A stretch of 64,000 bases of DNA from Acidimicrobiia bacterium (GTDB lineage: Bacteria > Acidobacteriota > Terriglobia > Bryobacterales > Bryobacteraceae), in contig VFZE01000011.1 of the NCBI GenBank assembly GCA_016871315.1, positions 1 to 64,000 on the forward strand, written 5' to 3'. The notes under the pieces were generated by a model. The model saw only the letters and a program-made list of their open reading frames with translations, searched no databases and was not told the DNA's origin. Made by a program: the position numbers and the translations under genes. The stretch's first letter is position 1. Each line of letters begins with the position of its first letter. This document shows positions 52,465-58,216 of this stretch, piece after piece.

Positions 52465-53115
52465 TCAGAATCCGTTGACGGCTGCGCGCCGCTTGAACAT
52501 CTGAGTGTGAGCTGACGGAGGTCGCCGCAGTCCGGCCTTGGAAACCGAAGTCAACAGAGTCGTCTTGATCTTTTCAAAATGGGTCCGGTCCATGCCCATC
52601 TCCTGCAAGATCATCTCGAGCGGATGGCCGTGAATGAAATACCGCTCGAGCACGGAACGCTCCTTCTGGGAACAATCTCGAAGGAGGCTTTCCAGCCGGG
52701 CTATTTTTCCGCGGATGCGCGCCTTATCGGTACTGCCCAGTACGGTGGCGGTGCCCGACTCAAATCGTCCTGTCTGATCTTCCCCCGGTTGGAACCCGGT
52801 ATGCTGTTTGAGCACGTGGCGGAAGAAAGCTACCAGATCGAACGGGTATTCGATGAGCCCTGCCCTGATTTCTGCGAGTGCGCCTTGCAAAGCCTGGTCG
52901 ACAAGCAGGTCCAGGCCGACAGGACCCAGGTTGCGCTTAAAAAAGACCTTGGCGCCACGAGAGTAGGTGTTTACGAACTCCTCCCCGGCTTCCGGGGAAC
53001 CTCTCCGAACTCCAGTGACGAGTCGTGCCCAATCGTCCGATTGAGCGGCAATGAGCTGAGGATCGTTGGCAGGCGCCTCAGCCTGGGGGGTGTAGGCAGG
53101 TTTGTCGGTCTGCAT
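52465..53115 (-). CDS. Sigma-70-like regulatory protein
   Basis: A divergent sigma-factor-like protein, 216 aa. Residues about 35-110 resemble region 2 (WARLVTGVRRGSPEAGEEFV, then QGALAEIRAGL). Residues 150-200 resemble region 4 with a helix-turn-helix (SQKERSVLERYFIHGHPLEMI, then LQEMGMDRTHFEKIK). The linker is long and polar. The ATG at 53115 is chosen; the open frame extends to 53235 without a clear start. A zinc-finger anti-sigma-like gene lies 165 bp upstream on the same strand. Confidence 0.7.
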   Translation of the reverse strand: MQTDKPAYTPQAEAPANDPQLIAAQSDDWARLVTGVRRGSPEAGEEFVNTYSRGAKVFFKRNLGPVGLDLLVDQALQGALAEIRAGLIEYPFDLVAFFRHVLKQHTGFQPGEDQTGRFESGTATVLGSTDKARIRGKIARLESLLRDCSQKERSVLERYFIHGHPLEMILQEMGMDRTHFEKIKTTLLTSVSKAGLRRPPSAHTQMFKRRAAVNGF

Positions 53116-53280
53116 ATAGTCAAGCGAGCCGGAGCGTATGCCCTCGGCTGGTTGTTTAGTAGTGTGGAGAGGTTGTGGAAAATTGCAGGGATTCTTAGAG
53201 GAAATTACTAAGAGTACCAGAACCATACTCGGCAAGAAAATAAACGGGTTAAGGAGAGGAAGACAGCAATATCCCTGAGC

Positions 53281-53493
53281 CTAGATCGAGTTAGCCCTGC
53301 GAGTTATGCTAGTCTCCTGTGTGGCTACGACCCGGAAAACATCGAGGAACTCCTGCGTCGATTCCACCAGCTGCGCGCAGCGCGGGCAAAGCAGGTAATG
53401 GTTCTCGAAAGTCTCCTGATCCTGCGGAGATAGGCGGCCGAAGCAGTAGGATTCTGCTACTTCGTCCGGCGATGGGGGACAACGATCATGCAT
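53281..53493 (-). CDS. Small zinc-finger anti-sigma-like protein
   Basis: A 70-aa cytoplasmic protein. HYLLCPRC forms the H-x3-C-x2-C core of zf-HC2 anti-sigma factors, preceded by the usual helix ending in SPQDQETFENH. There is no transmembrane domain, unlike most members. The ATG at 53493 has GGAG about 10 nt upstream. Being upstream of a sigma-like gene suggests it binds that protein. Confidence 0.7.
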   Translation of the reverse strand: MHDRCPPSPDEVAESYCFGRLSPQDQETFENHYLLCPRCAQLVESTQEFLDVFRVVATQETSITRRANSI

Positions 53494-53644
53494 GGGTGGT
53501 TCCGCTCCAGATGACTTAGTTTGGCATAGAAGCGTTGGACTCATCTATATTTTAGTGTGAATATCCGGACTTTATCCAAAGAAATTTTCGCTTTGGAAAG
53601 AGAAGGTTAGGAGTCGGGACCCTGTTGAAAGCCTGTGGAAAACT

Positions 53645-53665
53645 CCCGGAACGGAGGATTCCGGG
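53645..53665 (-). terminator. Intrinsic terminator of the Cys-rich/ferredoxin/MFS operon
   Basis: On the minus strand CCCGGAA and TTCCGGG form a perfect 7-bp stem with a 7-nt loop directly after the stop codon, followed by AGTTTTCC. Confidence 0.65.
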
Positions 53666-54343
53666 CTACTTAGTCGAGGAGCGGGCATTCTCGAGCACAC
53701 GTTTTGCACGGCTGGGATTAAAGACGCCGCAGGAGCAAAAACGAGCCAAATAGGTTACGGCTTGGTCCGGCGTGCGGCGGCCTTCCTTGACCCAATCGAT
53801 CATTTTCTTGGCGAGGGAAGAGGCGATCATACCGTGTCCGCACATGGTCATGAGAGTGAGCACCTGGGAGTTAGGCAGTTTTTCGGTCTTTCCTTCAAAG
53901 CCGAGCGAATAGCCGACGCTATGGCGGGCGATTCCGGCGGCGTGGCAGCACTGGTCGGCTCCATCGACAGAGGTGGAGACATTAATGGAGAGGCCAAGAT
54001 CCGCTGCCTTGACCTTCTTCACGAATTCCTCGGCTTTGACGCGGTCATCGAATACGGCAGCGACTGTGGTGATGTGGGAGAGGCCATTGACGACGGCCTG
54101 AAAGTCTGGCTGGATGTCGCGATTCCAATGGGCGGTGGGATTGAGATCCTTGGACGGGCGCAAAGCGCCGCCGTTGCGGGCGTCGCCGAGATTAATGGGC
54201 CCGAAAGGGATGGCCATTTCGAGGAACTTGCGGAGCCGGGGGAGCGCATCCTGCTCGTTCTTGCCGCGGCAGGCGATGGCGAACACGATGAAGTCGTCGC
54301 GGAAGCTCTCGGAGTTTCCAAAGCGGTGCAGGGTGTTGGTCAT
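53666..54343 (-). CDS. Cys-rich protein of unknown function
   Basis: Unrecognised family, 225 aa, cytoplasmic. Cysteines cluster at 25, 132-133 (DQCCHAAG), 168 (MTMCGHGM) and 203/205 (RFCSCGVF). Their conserved-looking Gly/His settings suggest metal or iron-sulfur binding or a redox active site. Flanking alpha/beta segments such as ITTVAAVFDDRVKAEEFVKK look like a Rossmann or ferredoxin fold. It follows the ferredoxin-like gene by 11 bp and ends the operon at a terminator. Confidence 0.65.
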   Translation of the reverse strand: MTNTLHRFGNSESFRDDFIVFAIACRGKNEQDALPRLRKFLEMAIPFGPINLGDARNGGALRPSKDLNPTAHWNRDIQPDFQAVVNGLSHITTVAAVFDDRVKAEEFVKKVKAADLGLSINVSTSVDGADQCCHAAGIARHSVGYSLGFEGKTEKLPNSQVLTLMTMCGHGMIASSLAKKMIDWVKEGRRTPDQAVTYLARFCSCGVFNPSRAKRVLENARSSTK

Positions 54344-54354
54344 GGCGGATCTCC

Positions 54355-55206
54355 TTAACGGGTGGTAACGGGTTCGGCGGCCGTCCGCGGTTCGGCGGCG
54401 GGCTTGTTGGTGATGCGGCCCAGGCCGATATTGGTTTTGGCGCGTTCGGGATGGTAGCCGAGCTGTTCGAGGATTGGCGCGACGATGTTTTCGCGGCCGG
54501 TTTCGTCACAACGCGCGCCGACGCCCAGGCAGACAACCGTGTCGACTTCCTTTTCCACTTCCCAAACCATGCGGATGATCTCTTCGGTGCGCTCCACGGG
54601 GACCTTGATTTCCACAATGGCGGACATGATCTTTTCGTCAAGTATGTCATCGCGGATCTCGCCGGTTGTCTCGTCCTTGAGGAGTGTGGTGATGGGGTTT
54701 TTCTTCTCAAAGGCGACCCCGGCCTTTGCCAGTCGCATGGTCATCTTCTGAATCTCATGGAAGCGGACACCGACGGCGGGGCGGCCGAATTCAATAGTGA
54801 AGCCGACCTCGCCCGTCTGTACGCGGCCGCTGACGTCGTTGGTCTTAACCTCCTCGGTGCCTCGGCCCTCCACTCCCGTGGATTCGTGCGGGACGCGCGG
54901 ATCGGAGAAGGCGCGGCGCACGATGCGCGGCCAGGTGAGGTCTTCGGGAGCAAATGCAGCGGTGGGGCAGACGTCCGGTTCCGGCTCAAAGCGCAGGCGG
55001 AAGAACTGGAACACCTTGCGCACGGTGCGGACCATGGTGGGGTTGAGATGTTCCTGGCTGAGACCGTTGTAACAGGCGTAGCATTCCACGCACTCGTCAC
55101 GGTCGACCGTGGCGCGCCTGATGACCGGGTCAATGTAGATGGCGCCCATCGGGCAGACATAGGTGCAGTTGCCGCAGGCAACACATTTCTGAGGATCAAT
55201 TCTCAT
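54355..55206 (-). CDS. 4Fe-4S ferredoxin-domain protein with split second cluster motif
   Basis: A 283-aa protein. Cluster 1 is classical: KCVACGNCTYVCPMG. Cluster 2 reads ECVECYAC, then a 34-residue insertion, then a CP pair (DVCPTAAF), instead of the usual three-residue gap. The C-terminal two thirds have no family I recognise but look like an ACT/ferredoxin-type alpha/beta regulatory domain (IVEIKVPVERTEEIIRMVW). It is 3 bp after the MFS gene and 11 bp before the Cys-rich gene. Confidence 0.75.
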   Translation of the reverse strand: MRIDPQKCVACGNCTYVCPMGAIYIDPVIRRATVDRDECVECYACYNGLSQEHLNPTMVRTVRKVFQFFRLRFEPEPDVCPTAAFAPEDLTWPRIVRRAFSDPRVPHESTGVEGRGTEEVKTNDVSGRVQTGEVGFTIEFGRPAVGVRFHEIQKMTMRLAKAGVAFEKKNPITTLLKDETTGEIRDDILDEKIMSAIVEIKVPVERTEEIIRMVWEVEKEVDTVVCLGVGARCDETGRENIVAPILEQLGYHPERAKTNIGLGRITNKPAAEPRTAAEPVTTR

Positions 55207-55209
55207 AGG

Positions 55210-56469
55210 TCACGTCCCGGAAAGGATTCTTCGCGTCGCGTCTATTCTAGTAAACAACAAGGCGGCGGTCACGCACAATGCGGAAGCCAGCAGGAAGGGC
55301 ACATCCCAGCCGTACCACTTCACCAGGTAGGCGAGCACGGTGGGGGAAAGCGCGCCGCCGATGTTGCCGCAAGTGTTCATGACGGCGGAGACCGAGCCGG
55401 CGAAATCGCCGCCGATGTCGAGCGGGATGGCCCAGGAGACGCCGACCGTCACCTCCAGCCCGAAGACGCCCAGGCAGGTGAAGGCGACGCAGGCCTCGGG
55501 ATCCGAGGTAAGCGTGGCGGGAACGATGCCGGCGGCGGCAATCACGAAGCCGGCGATGGCCACGCCGCGGCGCGCCAGCTTCAGATTGCCGGAGCGGTGC
55601 GCCCAGATATCGGAAACCCAGCCGCCGGCGAGGTCGCCGATGGTGCCCGCCAGCAACGGAAGGGCGGCGTAAAAACCCATCTGCTTGAGGTTGTAGCCGC
55701 GGTGATCGTTCAGATACTTGGGGAACCAATCCAGGTAGACCGAAACGCAGTAGGCATAGCAGAAGTACATCAGCGAAAGCGTCCACAGCGTGGAACTGGA
55801 GAGGATGGCTTTCCACGGCACCGAGACAGAGGTCTTTGATCGCGGCCCGCCGAGGGAGTTGTGTATCAGATCTAGCTCGGCTTTGTTGACGCCGGAATGT
55901 TCTTCCGGCGTGTCGCGGTAGTAGAAGTACCAGACGGCCGCCCAGAGCAGGCCGACGGAGCCGAACAGGAAGAACGGGGACCGCCAGCCGTAGGAGAGCA
56001 TGAGCCAGACAACGATGGGCGGCGTGATGGCGGCGCCGAGGCGCGAGCCTGCATGAGTGACGCCTTGCGCGTAGCCGCGCTCGGTGGGAAGCATCCAGCG
56101 GGAAAGCGACCGCGTGGCGATGGGAAAGGCGCCAGCTTCGCCCATGCCGAACAGGAACCGGAAGACGGCCATCGAGAGGGCGTTCCAGCTGAGGGCGGTG
56201 ATGGATGTGAAGGCGCTCCACCAGACGACGATGGCGGAAAGGGCGCGGCGCGGGCCAAAGCGGTCGCCCAGCCAGCCGCCGGGGATCTGAAACAGCGCGT
56301 AGCCCCACCGGAACGAGCTGAGAATCCAGCCCATCGTGACCAGATCAAAGCCGAACTCCTTCTGGATGAGGGGAACGGCGGCGGAAATGACGACCCGATC
56401 CATGTAGGTGATCATGTAGGCCGCCACGGTGAGCCAAAGGACGATGTGGCGTGTGCGAGAGGGGCGCAT
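55210..56469 (-). CDS. MFS transporter, anion:cation symporter (ACS) type
   Basis: A 419-aa permease with about 12 helices. The N-terminus (YMITYMDRVVISAAVPLIQK) and the loop 2-3 motif GGWLGDRFGPRRA are characteristic of the ACS branch, which carries sugar acids, glucarate, galactonate and phthalates. GMGEAGAFPIATRSLSRW is the expected helix-4 motif. It is first of the three-gene operon, so the imported organic acid is probably processed by, or sensed with, the ferredoxin and Cys-rich proteins. Confidence 0.88.
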   Translation of the reverse strand: MRPSRTRHIVLWLTVAAYMITYMDRVVISAAVPLIQKEFGFDLVTMGWILSSFRWGYALFQIPGGWLGDRFGPRRALSAIVVWWSAFTSITALSWNALSMAVFRFLFGMGEAGAFPIATRSLSRWMLPTERGYAQGVTHAGSRLGAAITPPIVVWLMLSYGWRSPFFLFGSVGLLWAAVWYFYYRDTPEEHSGVNKAELDLIHNSLGGPRSKTSVSVPWKAILSSSTLWTLSLMYFCYAYCVSVYLDWFPKYLNDHRGYNLKQMGFYAALPLLAGTIGDLAGGWVSDIWAHRSGNLKLARRGVAIAGFVIAAAGIVPATLTSDPEACVAFTCLGVFGLEVTVGVSWAIPLDIGGDFAGSVSAVMNTCGNIGGALSPTVLAYLVKWYGWDVPFLLASALCVTAALLFTRIDATRRILSGT

Positions 56470-56545: not shown

Positions 56546-58216
56546 ATGTTGCTCTCTATCCTCCGCATCATCGCGCTTGGCGGACTGTGCCTTCCGCCAC
56601 TGGTGGCCGATTTCGCTTCGGCGATGCGCGCATATGAGCATGGAGATTTTCCTACCGCGCTGCGGGAGCTGACGCGGGAAGCCCAGCAAGGCCACATCGG
56701 GGCGCAGTATCTGCTGGGCTTCATGCATTCGGCGGGCCGGGGAGTGGCAGTGAACGACCCCGAGGCGCTGAAGTGGTACCGGATGGCGGCCGAGAAAGGT
56801 CATGCCGACGCGCAGTATGCGCTCGGGTTCCTTTACGCCAACGGACGGGGTACGGCAACCGATGAAGAGGAAGCGGCAAAGTGGTTCGGGTTCGCGGCGG
56901 CGCAAGGCCATGCGCCGGCCAAATACAACCTGGGCCAGTTGCTCATGCAGGGCCGCGGTCTGGAGAAAAATGAAGCGGCGGCGGCCGCGCACCTGCAGCA
57001 GGCGGCCGACGCGGGTCATCCGGGTGCGCTGTATGAGCTGGCCAAGGCGAGACTGGAAGGCCGCGGCATGGAGAAGGACGAACGCGGCGGCATTGGCCTT
57101 CTGCGCTCGGCGGCGGAGCGCGGTTTTGGGGCGGCGCAGGGCGAGCTGGGCCTGATGTATGCGGAAGGCAAGCAAGTTCCGCAGAACGACGCCGAAGCGT
57201 TCCGGTGGCTGCACCTGGCCGGGGAAAACTCGAACCCGGAAGCGCAGTATCAGCTGGCAATCATGTACGCCGAAGGCAAGGGGATCACGCAGGATGACAC
57301 GATGGCGGTGGGCTGGCTGAAAAAAGCGGCGGCGGGCAATCACGCAGAGGCGCAGTATGCGTTGGGGTTCCGCTACGCCAACGGGCAGGGCGTCGAGAAG
57401 CAGGATAGCGAGGCGGCGAAATGGTACTTGCGCGCGGCGCAGCAGGGTCATGCGGGTGGCTTTTTCCAGTTGCGGACGATGTTGGAGGCGGGCCGCGCGG
57501 AGTCGGTCAAGCAGGCGGATCTGCTGCGTGTATATCAGGTGGCGGCCAAGGAGGGCAATGCGGATGCGCAACTGCAACTGGGCCTGCTGATGGAGGAAGG
57601 CAAGGGCGTGGCGCGCGATGGCGCTCAGGCGGCTCGGCTGTACCGGACGGCGGCCGAGCAGGGACACGTGGAGGCACAATACCGTTTGGGGCGGATGCTG
57701 GCGGATGGAAAAGGAGTGGAGCGTAACGCGAGTGAGGCGGCGCATTGGTACCGTTCCGCGGCGCAGCAAGGTCACCGCGAAGCTCAGGGGGCGGTTGCGG
57801 AACTGCTGCTGGAAGGCAAGGCGGCCGGTCAGAACGAGGCGGAGGTAGCGCAGTGGTCGCGCGTGGCGGCCGAGGCAGGCAACGCCGAGGCGGCCTATGC
57901 CTACGGGATCGCGTGCTTGAACGGGAAGGGCGTGAAGCAGGACGTGCGGGAGGGCGCACGCTGGCTGCGCATCGCCGCCGACTACGGCCACGCCGGGGCG
58001 CAAAGCCAGCTGGCGCGGCTGCACCTGGAAGGCCGCGGTGTTCCGCAAGATTACGTGCAGGCGCACATGTGGGCCAATCTTGCCGCCGCGGCAGGCGATG
58101 AGCAGGCGCTGGAGACGCGGAACCGGCTAACGTCGCTGATGACCAGGGAGCAGGTGGCGCAGGCGCAGGACCTGGTTCGCAGCTGGCGGCCGAAAGCCGC
58201 TACGCCGCAGCCGTAG
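56546..58216 (+). CDS. Sel1-like repeat (SLR) protein, secreted
   Basis: A signal peptide (LSILRIIALGGLCLPPLVA) is followed by about 14 tandem 36-residue Sel1 units of the form AQYxLGxxYxxGxGVxxDxxEAxKWYRxAA, filling almost all of the 556 aa. Such solenoids mediate protein-protein contacts in signalling or envelope assembly. It is divergent from the MFS operon. A helix following the last repeat contains many Gln and Arg. Confidence 0.9.
   Translation: MLLSILRIIALGGLCLPPLVADFASAMRAYEHGDFPTALRELTREAQQGHIGAQYLLGFMHSAGRGVAVNDPEALKWYRMAAEKGHADAQYALGFLYANGRGTATDEEEAAKWFGFAAAQGHAPAKYNLGQLLMQGRGLEKNEAAAAAHLQQAADAGHPGALYELAKARLEGRGMEKDERGGIGLLRSAAERGFGAAQGELGLMYAEGKQVPQNDAEAFRWLHLAGENSNPEAQYQLAIMYAEGKGITQDDTMAVGWLKKAAAGNHAEAQYALGFRYANGQGVEKQDSEAAKWYLRAAQQGHAGGFFQLRTMLEAGRAESVKQADLLRVYQVAAKEGNADAQLQLGLLMEEGKGVARDGAQAARLYRTAAEQGHVEAQYRLGRMLADGKGVERNASEAAHWYRSAAQQGHREAQGAVAELLLEGKAAGQNEAEVAQWSRVAAEAGNAEAAYAYGIACLNGKGVKQDVREGARWLRIAADYGHAGAQSQLARLHLEGRGVPQDYVQAHMWANLAAAAGDEQALETRNRLTSLMTREQVAQAQDLVRSWRPKAATPQP

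Follow-up and report, generated by a model that had tools for sequence, protein, structure and literature searches.

The described systems closest to the operon considered here are the 2[4Fe-4S] clostridial ferredoxins (1fdn; Fer4), the organic-anion symporters of the DgoT/ACS family (TC 2.A.1.14), and, through the neighbors of some distant relatives, the phenylglyoxylate:NAD+ oxidoreductase whose flavoprotein subunit is PadH. The operon lies on the minus strand of a 64,000-nucleotide stretch (the window; positions 1 to 64,000 of contig VFZE01000011.1, GenBank assembly GCA_016871315.1, assigned to the Bryobacteraceae of the Acidobacteriota). It encodes a ferredoxin-headed protein (FDX; 54355..55206, a 283-aa open reading frame, ORF), a cysteine-rich protein (CYS; 53666..54343, a 225-aa ORF), and a permease of the major facilitator superfamily (MFS; 55210..56469, a 419-aa ORF). 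The head of FDX resembles clostridial ferredoxins in predicted fold and in motifs, and the permease resembles ACS symporters over nearly its full length. We found that FDX and CYS form a conserved pair, solidly a conserved unknown, and we propose, with a probability of about 0.4, that together they make up a two-subunit iron-sulfur oxidoreductase, so far undescribed, that acts on imported carboxylic acids.

FDX and CYS are the conserved unit of the operon

The three same-strand ORFs are separated by gaps of 3 bp and 11 bp, as described in the initial annotation, and all three are conserved as proteins. In a related locus (L008), the MFS, FDX, and CYS homologs are 81%, 86%, and 84% identical to those of the window, which excludes chance ORFs for all three genes. 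A scan of named genomes for CYS returned 86 relatives, of which 80 loci were kept; three loci from a single-sequence search brought the set to 83, and an FDX match is present in 75 of these. Among the eight loci without one, no more than 200 bases separate CYS from the end of the contig in L020, L068, and L085, and L007 is a 1.7-kb piece; the other four (L061, L064, L069, and L086) are not explained by a contig end. When we checked genomes rather than loci, FDX was matched in 13 of 13, a sample that includes the genomes of L061, L064, L085, and L086 and leaves out those of L007, L020, L068, and L069. In the L085 genome, FDX and CYS apparently lie ~10 kb apart on one contig. Both gene ends could be set in 71 loci (81 with CYS, 72 with FDX), and the two genes overlap by 4 bp in 49 of the 71. 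Full-length sequences were aligned with those of the window as A1 (FDX; 49 rows, the window plus 48 of 71) and A2 (CYS; 52 rows, the window plus 51 of 80).

The pairing extends to distant relatives. In a set of 40 loci, 36 chosen by CYS and four by FDX, every CYS ORF called (42 of 42) has an FDX ORF immediately upstream of it in the same orientation. CYS is missing beside four FDX ORFs, three of them in loci picked for a separated pair and one at a contig end; L169 and L174, where one ORF calling did not detect the pair, are shown to be paired by the co-divergence analysis. For 41 pairs, in which FDX has a median identity of 43% and CYS one of 38% (L196, with a damaged FDX frame, excluded), the distance matrices of the two proteins are correlated (r = 0.87). 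Shuffling partners within six multi-copy genomes gave a mean correlation of 0.55 and a maximum of 0.83, and none of 5,000 shuffles reached 0.87. Hence, every CYS has changed in step with its partner FDX, a pattern that subunits of a single complex would be expected to show. An apparent FDX-CYS fusion at one locus proved to be an artifact of a frame that runs through unreadable sequence.

The conserved unit is the FDX-CYS pair and not the three genes. We counted neighbors at 127 loci matching either protein, calling those within 3 kb near (near and far DNA amounted to 651 and 756 kb); partner classes were picked after inspecting these same loci, and the counts are per locus, ignoring kinship. 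An MFS protein like that of the window is near the pair in only 43 of the 127 loci (far-only in 5), and in several loci the MFS protein is only 46%–49% identical to the window's although FDX is 75%–81% identical. The permease is an exchangeable partner, and relatives have MFS, TctABC, or TRAP importers. Overall, the interpretation offered in the initial annotation is partly supported: its suggestion that the two soluble proteins act together is supported, and a fixed unit of three genes is not. Separation of the genes in relatives, which it named as refuting its reading, applies in part to the permease and hardly at all to FDX-CYS.

CYS relatives in named genomes come mostly from metagenome-assembled genomes of Acidobacteriota, and also from Rokubacteria, Deltaproteobacteria, Gemmatimonadetes, Myxococcales, and Chloroflexota. 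In genome counts, which include the starting genome and sample the phyla reachable from the loci found, CYS was matched in 4 of 297 genomes of the window's phylum by a single-sequence search and in 71 of 150 genomes of its order by a profile, a few of these matches being partial (at least two, in G813 and G923, cover the C-terminal module only). Elsewhere, CYS occurs in 7 of 251 genomes in the phylum of G297, in 25 of 247 in that of G298, where a single genome carries as many as 11 matches spread over nine places, in 22 of 95 in that of G299, and in 1 of 146 in that of G300, i.e., the starting genome alone. The pair has multiplied into many paralogs in some lineages, several of these being linked to importers, and is mostly present as one copy in the sampled Acidobacteriota. 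Despite this spread, it is functionally unnamed. We found no description of it in the titles and beginnings of abstracts that were searched, and this result, together with the Pfam and NCBIfam searches below, is the ground for calling it undescribed. Being small, and single-copy in the window's genome, the pair is amenable to direct testing.

Domain architecture of FDX and CYS

FDX matches Fer4 models of Pfam at residues 1–47 only. Its eight cluster cysteines (C8, C11, C14, and C18; C39, C42, C45, and C80) are kept in 55–56 of 58 rows of a diverse alignment, and by these motifs, both of which are present, the head is an ordinary 2[4Fe-4S] ferredoxin domain. In the window's clade, a 29-residue loop insert stands between C45 and the last ligand, C80. 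Across 73 rows, the C45–C80 spacing is 34 residues in 40, 45 residues in one, five in 30, and seven in one, the last row being a fragment; the long spacing is thus found in 41 of 73 rows, with 32 of 73 lacking it. In a quick tree made without the insert columns, a single branch (SH-aLRT 100) separates the insert-bearing group from the other rows. The "split" second cluster of the initial annotation is therefore not a new type of cluster and is explained by a clade-specific loop insert, as insert-free relatives show the ordinary five-residue spacing. The best NCBIfam match of FDX is HgcB (NF040864), confined to the ferredoxin segment (residues 2–47); at 30 bits, far under the cut-off of 99, an identity with this mercury-methylation ferredoxin was rejected.

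Beyond the head, FDX continues for ~190 residues as a conserved C-terminal domain that is unnamed in both Pfam and NCBIfam. In the 58 rows, R142 is kept in all 58, K257 and N259 in 57, R115, K121, N123, and E139 in 56, and E119 in 54; C233 is kept in 24 and is unconserved outside the window's clade. An AlphaFold2 model (mean predicted local distance difference test score, pLDDT, of 79, falling below 50 in stretches around residues 106–120 and 258–265) predicts a clostridial-type ferredoxin followed by a ferredoxin-like alpha/beta domain. Residues 1–88 align with clostridial ferredoxin 1fdn at Z 7.2 (root-mean-square deviation, rmsd, of 1.4 over 54 residues), and the C-terminal domain aligns with GlnK and PstA, among others, at Z 6.4–6.5 (rmsd 2.4–2.6 over 73). 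A fold search of PDB with the FDX model gave no match at E ≤ 0.001, and PHROGs gave only weak matches (E 0.05 or worse). One distant FDX (L195:3878-4726, plus strand) has an apparent twin-arginine signal and lipobox, as read by eye, and its CYS has no signal; this arrangement, a single case, suggests an exported version of FDX and would fit export of a pre-formed complex.

CYS has no Pfam and no NCBIfam match up to E 10, in searches whose HMMER filters conceal most weak matches. The best hit of its profile among PDB sequences is no better than E 1.5, a fold search of PDB with its model gave no match at E ≤ 0.001, and neither PHROGs nor a plasmid search returned a match. The earlier remark that the soluble proteins match no named family thus stands for the whole of CYS and, in FDX, for the C-terminal part. 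Five CYS residues (C168, H170, C203, C205, and N209) are invariant in 56 of 56 rows, and we propose that C168, H170, C203, and C205 are a candidate metal or iron-sulfur site. Taken with the conserved charged residues of FDX, these putative ligands display conservation of a catalytic type. The AlphaFold2 model of CYS (mean pLDDT 87) predicts a ferredoxin-like alpha/beta domain and then a helical C-terminal module, in which two helices would begin after C168/H170 and C203/C205. The alpha/beta domain aligns best with the PII-like protein SbtB (Z 5.0, rmsd 6.2 over 87 residues). For both models, the structural aligner returned ferredoxins and generic ferredoxin-like folds; no acid dehydratase, racemase, or reductase is among the matches listed for CYS, a result that excludes nothing.

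Two further assignments were dropped. What we took to be a likeness of CYS to the MCGH motif of proline racemase-like proteins was rejected, with 0 Pfam families matched at E ≤ 10, and a reading of the pair as a 6-hydroxynicotinate reductase (Hnr) split in two was set aside, the Hnr family being, we presume, a different one. Small stand-alone proteins that consist of the CxHG...CxCG module of CYS only are encoded at L201:5902-6192 (minus strand) and L202:5026-5493 (plus strand), in two genomes of one genus and among uninformative neighbors.

Importers and enzymes near the pair

The permease matches MFS_1 of Pfam (E 3e-68). Its best PDB match is DgoT (6e9n; E 1e-55, residues 2–407), and its best NCBIfam model is TIGR00893 (2A0114/D-galactonate transporter), at 287 bits against a cut-off of 395. 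By sequence it is an MFS permease, probably of the anion:cation symporter (ACS) type, with the D-galactonate transporter DgoT as its nearest solved relative, in agreement with the importer class first assigned to it.

Other partners recur near the pair at the 127 loci. An amidohydrolase is near at 26 (none far-only), and two further importer classes are represented by TctA at 6 (5 far-only) and DctM at 5 (3 or 1 far-only, depending on the query). Among enzymes, we found a GlcD/YdiJ-like FAD+CCG dehydrogenase at 9 loci (1 far-only), four of the nine being close relatives and L074 and L167 matching at only 22%–29%; a PadH-like flavoprotein at 7 (1 far-only); a CODH-like protein at 6 (none far-only); a thiamine pyrophosphate (TPP) enzyme of the 2-oxoacid type at 5 (none far-only); and IorA and IorB at 3 (none far-only). 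A CoA-transferase III is near at 3 (1 far-only). The GlcD-like, TPP, and Ior partners speak for a connection of the pair with 2-hydroxy and 2-oxo acids, and the PadH-like NADH flavoprotein for one with redox metabolism. A separate tally of operonic neighbors covers 102 of 108 neighbors, with unrelated proteins scanned jointly (A3). Near distant paralogs we noted FdrA/AllG, dihydropyrimidinase/allantoinase-like genes, MmgE/PrpD, and aldehyde dehydrogenase.

We checked these tallies on a further 18 loci, all from the G299 phylum (20 fetched, two dropped as repeats; near and far DNA of 85 and 89 kb). TctA is near at 6 and DctM at 5, with one or the other at 9 of 18; the TPP enzyme is near at 4, a CODH-like protein at 2, and Ior and PadH at 1 each, none of these being far-only. 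BhcA was found only far, and no MFS or amidohydrolase match was found near or far. The link of the pair to 2-oxo and 2-hydroxy acids is a tendency and not a rule, and its link to carboxylate importers is broader. In other phyla, the pair is repeatedly encoded close to carboxylate importers of different classes.

Several arrangements recur among the loci. A CODH-like protein (~515–573 aa) and a PadH-like NADH flavoprotein stand near FDX-CYS in L171, L180, L182, L183, L184, L190, and L225, some of these loci also having a Fer4 protein, a TctABC importer, or a BhcA-like aminotransferase (L183 and L225); in L183, the score of the CODH-like protein is 216, with the CODH cut-off at 478. In L082, L084, L087, and L220, from the Rokubacteria group, the pair is flanked on one side by iorA and on the other by iorB, the genes of an indolepyruvate-type ferredoxin oxidoreductase. 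In six acidobacterial loci (L041, L042, L043, L050, L051, and L055), a protein of the Asparaginase_2 family, as typed in L051, is encoded ~1.3 kb away from FDX-CYS; its gene lies immediately before MFS in the loci read. PurE and PurK, near the operon in some Acidobacteriota, were rejected as functional partners and are ordinary housekeeping neighbors.

Directly 3' of the CYS stop codon, a GC-rich inverted repeat of 7 bp (53645..53665, minus strand) is a possible weak terminator. It has a 7-bp stem and four U in its tail, at the place where a terminator was first noted, and the stretch has a better fold than shuffled versions of it (z −3.4; 1 of 200 equally good). The predicted stem differs from the 7-bp repeat, however, and a terminator scan did not report the hairpin, which leaves a terminator at the operon end only weakly supported. 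Upstream and divergent from the operon is a Sel1-repeat protein with 11 repeat matches (56546-58216, plus strand). Downstream, on the minus strand, are a small zf-HC2-like protein (53281-53544) and a protein weakly matching sigma-70 region 4 (52465-53235), both below cut-off and perhaps a regulator pair.

Candidate function and related systems

In the oxidoreductase that we propose, the MFS permease would import the substrate, an organic acid and perhaps a 2-hydroxy or 2-oxo acid. The ferredoxin head of FDX would relay electrons to or from a center in CYS, held by C168/H170/C203/C205 and being either a catalytic metal or an iron-sulfur cluster, and a substrate pocket may lie beside this center, its lining formed by the charged residues that are conserved in the C-terminal domain of FDX. 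FDX-CYS would then oxidize or reduce the imported acid before ordinary enzymes take over, such as the D-2-hydroxyacid dehydrogenase, 2-oxoacid decarboxylase, or indolepyruvate ferredoxin oxidoreductase encoded near the pair in some relatives. We infer the complex itself, the type of its center, the direction of electron flow, and the substrate from sequence. A more general form of the proposal, in which a widespread class of two-subunit iron-sulfur enzymes with ferredoxin-headed and CxH/CxC subunits performs redox chemistry on imported 2-hydroxy or 2-oxo acids, is doubtful.

Several observations weigh against the oxidoreductase. FDX-CYS has no homolog of known function, and neither model found a PDB match at E ≤ 0.001. 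In the window the permease is the only operon partner of the pair, and the GlcD homologs of this genome are weak and on other contigs. None of the three importer types is within 3 kb at 73 of the 127 loci, many of which are cut by contig ends. The varied neighbors (amidohydrolase, allantoin-type, and MmgE/PrpD genes) make a shared substrate class uncertain. The 18 further loci contain no GlcD-like match near or far, and for this reason we lowered our confidence slightly, from 0.42 to 0.40.

The ligands of CYS could also be read differently. Its three invariant cysteines and one histidine might hold a three-cysteine, substrate-binding [4Fe-4S] cluster as in aconitase-type dehydratases, so that FDX-CYS would be a lyase that dehydrates or racemizes hydroxy acids, with the ferredoxin head structural or cluster-reactivating. 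A DgoT-like permease suits sugar acids, and an enolase-superfamily (MR_MLE) protein in L083 and 2-hydroxyacid enzymes at other loci would fit as well. Electron flow is nevertheless indicated by the conserved 2[4Fe-4S] electron-transfer head and, at several loci, by adjacent NADH flavoproteins, and no dehydratase is matched in Pfam or NCBIfam; we regard a lyase as unlikely. We think it quite improbable that the pair is a PII-like redox-responsive regulator that uses its clusters to sense a ligand or the redox state and controls the neighboring transporter or pathway. SbtB, the best alignment of CYS, controls the bicarbonate transporter SbtA, the FDX C-terminal domain aligns with GlnK and PstA, and several importer classes are repeatedly found near the pair. 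Z values of this size are common among ferredoxin-like folds, however, with designed proteins reaching Z 5.0 and 6.0 on the same models, the loci without a nearby importer do not suit a regulator of transport, and an enzyme is the better match to the many charged residues that are conserved and to the association with catabolic enzymes.

Partners that vary by lineage, and pairs placed between iorA and iorB or beside CODH-like proteins with PadH-like flavoproteins, would agree with an accessory module that has no substrate of its own and that supplies electrons to, activates, or matures its partners (2-oxoacid oxidoreductase, CODH-like protein, or D-2-hydroxyacid dehydrogenase). The window pair is accompanied by a permease alone, though, and many co-diverging copies per genome suit substrate-specific enzymes better than a shared helper; there is little likelihood, in our judgment, of such a role. 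FDX and CYS were rejected as subunits of a 2-oxoacid:ferredoxin oxidoreductase of the phenylglyoxylate or indolepyruvate type, as they have no POR or TPP match and as IorA and IorB are separate neighbors (3 of 127 and 1 of 18 further loci).

If FDX-CYS is indeed an oxidoreductase of carboxylic acids, it would help explain the use of organic acids through MFS, TRAP, and TTT importers in groups such as uncultured Acidobacteriota and Rokubacteria, and its catalytic metal site may be of an undescribed kind. Compared with clostridial 2[4Fe-4S] ferredoxins, FDX differs by its extra domain of ~190 residues and by the 29-residue insert of its clade. The PadH-like flavoprotein beside some distant pairs, which scores 286 bits against a cut-off of 475 in L183, suggests NAD-linked electron transfer via the ferredoxin-like subunit, as in phenylglyoxylate:NAD+ oxidoreductase; FDX and CYS differ from that system in having no thiamine-diphosphate domain, and the window operon in having no PadH. 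On present sequence comparisons, the pair may belong with the ferredoxin-linked oxidoreductases, as a new form.

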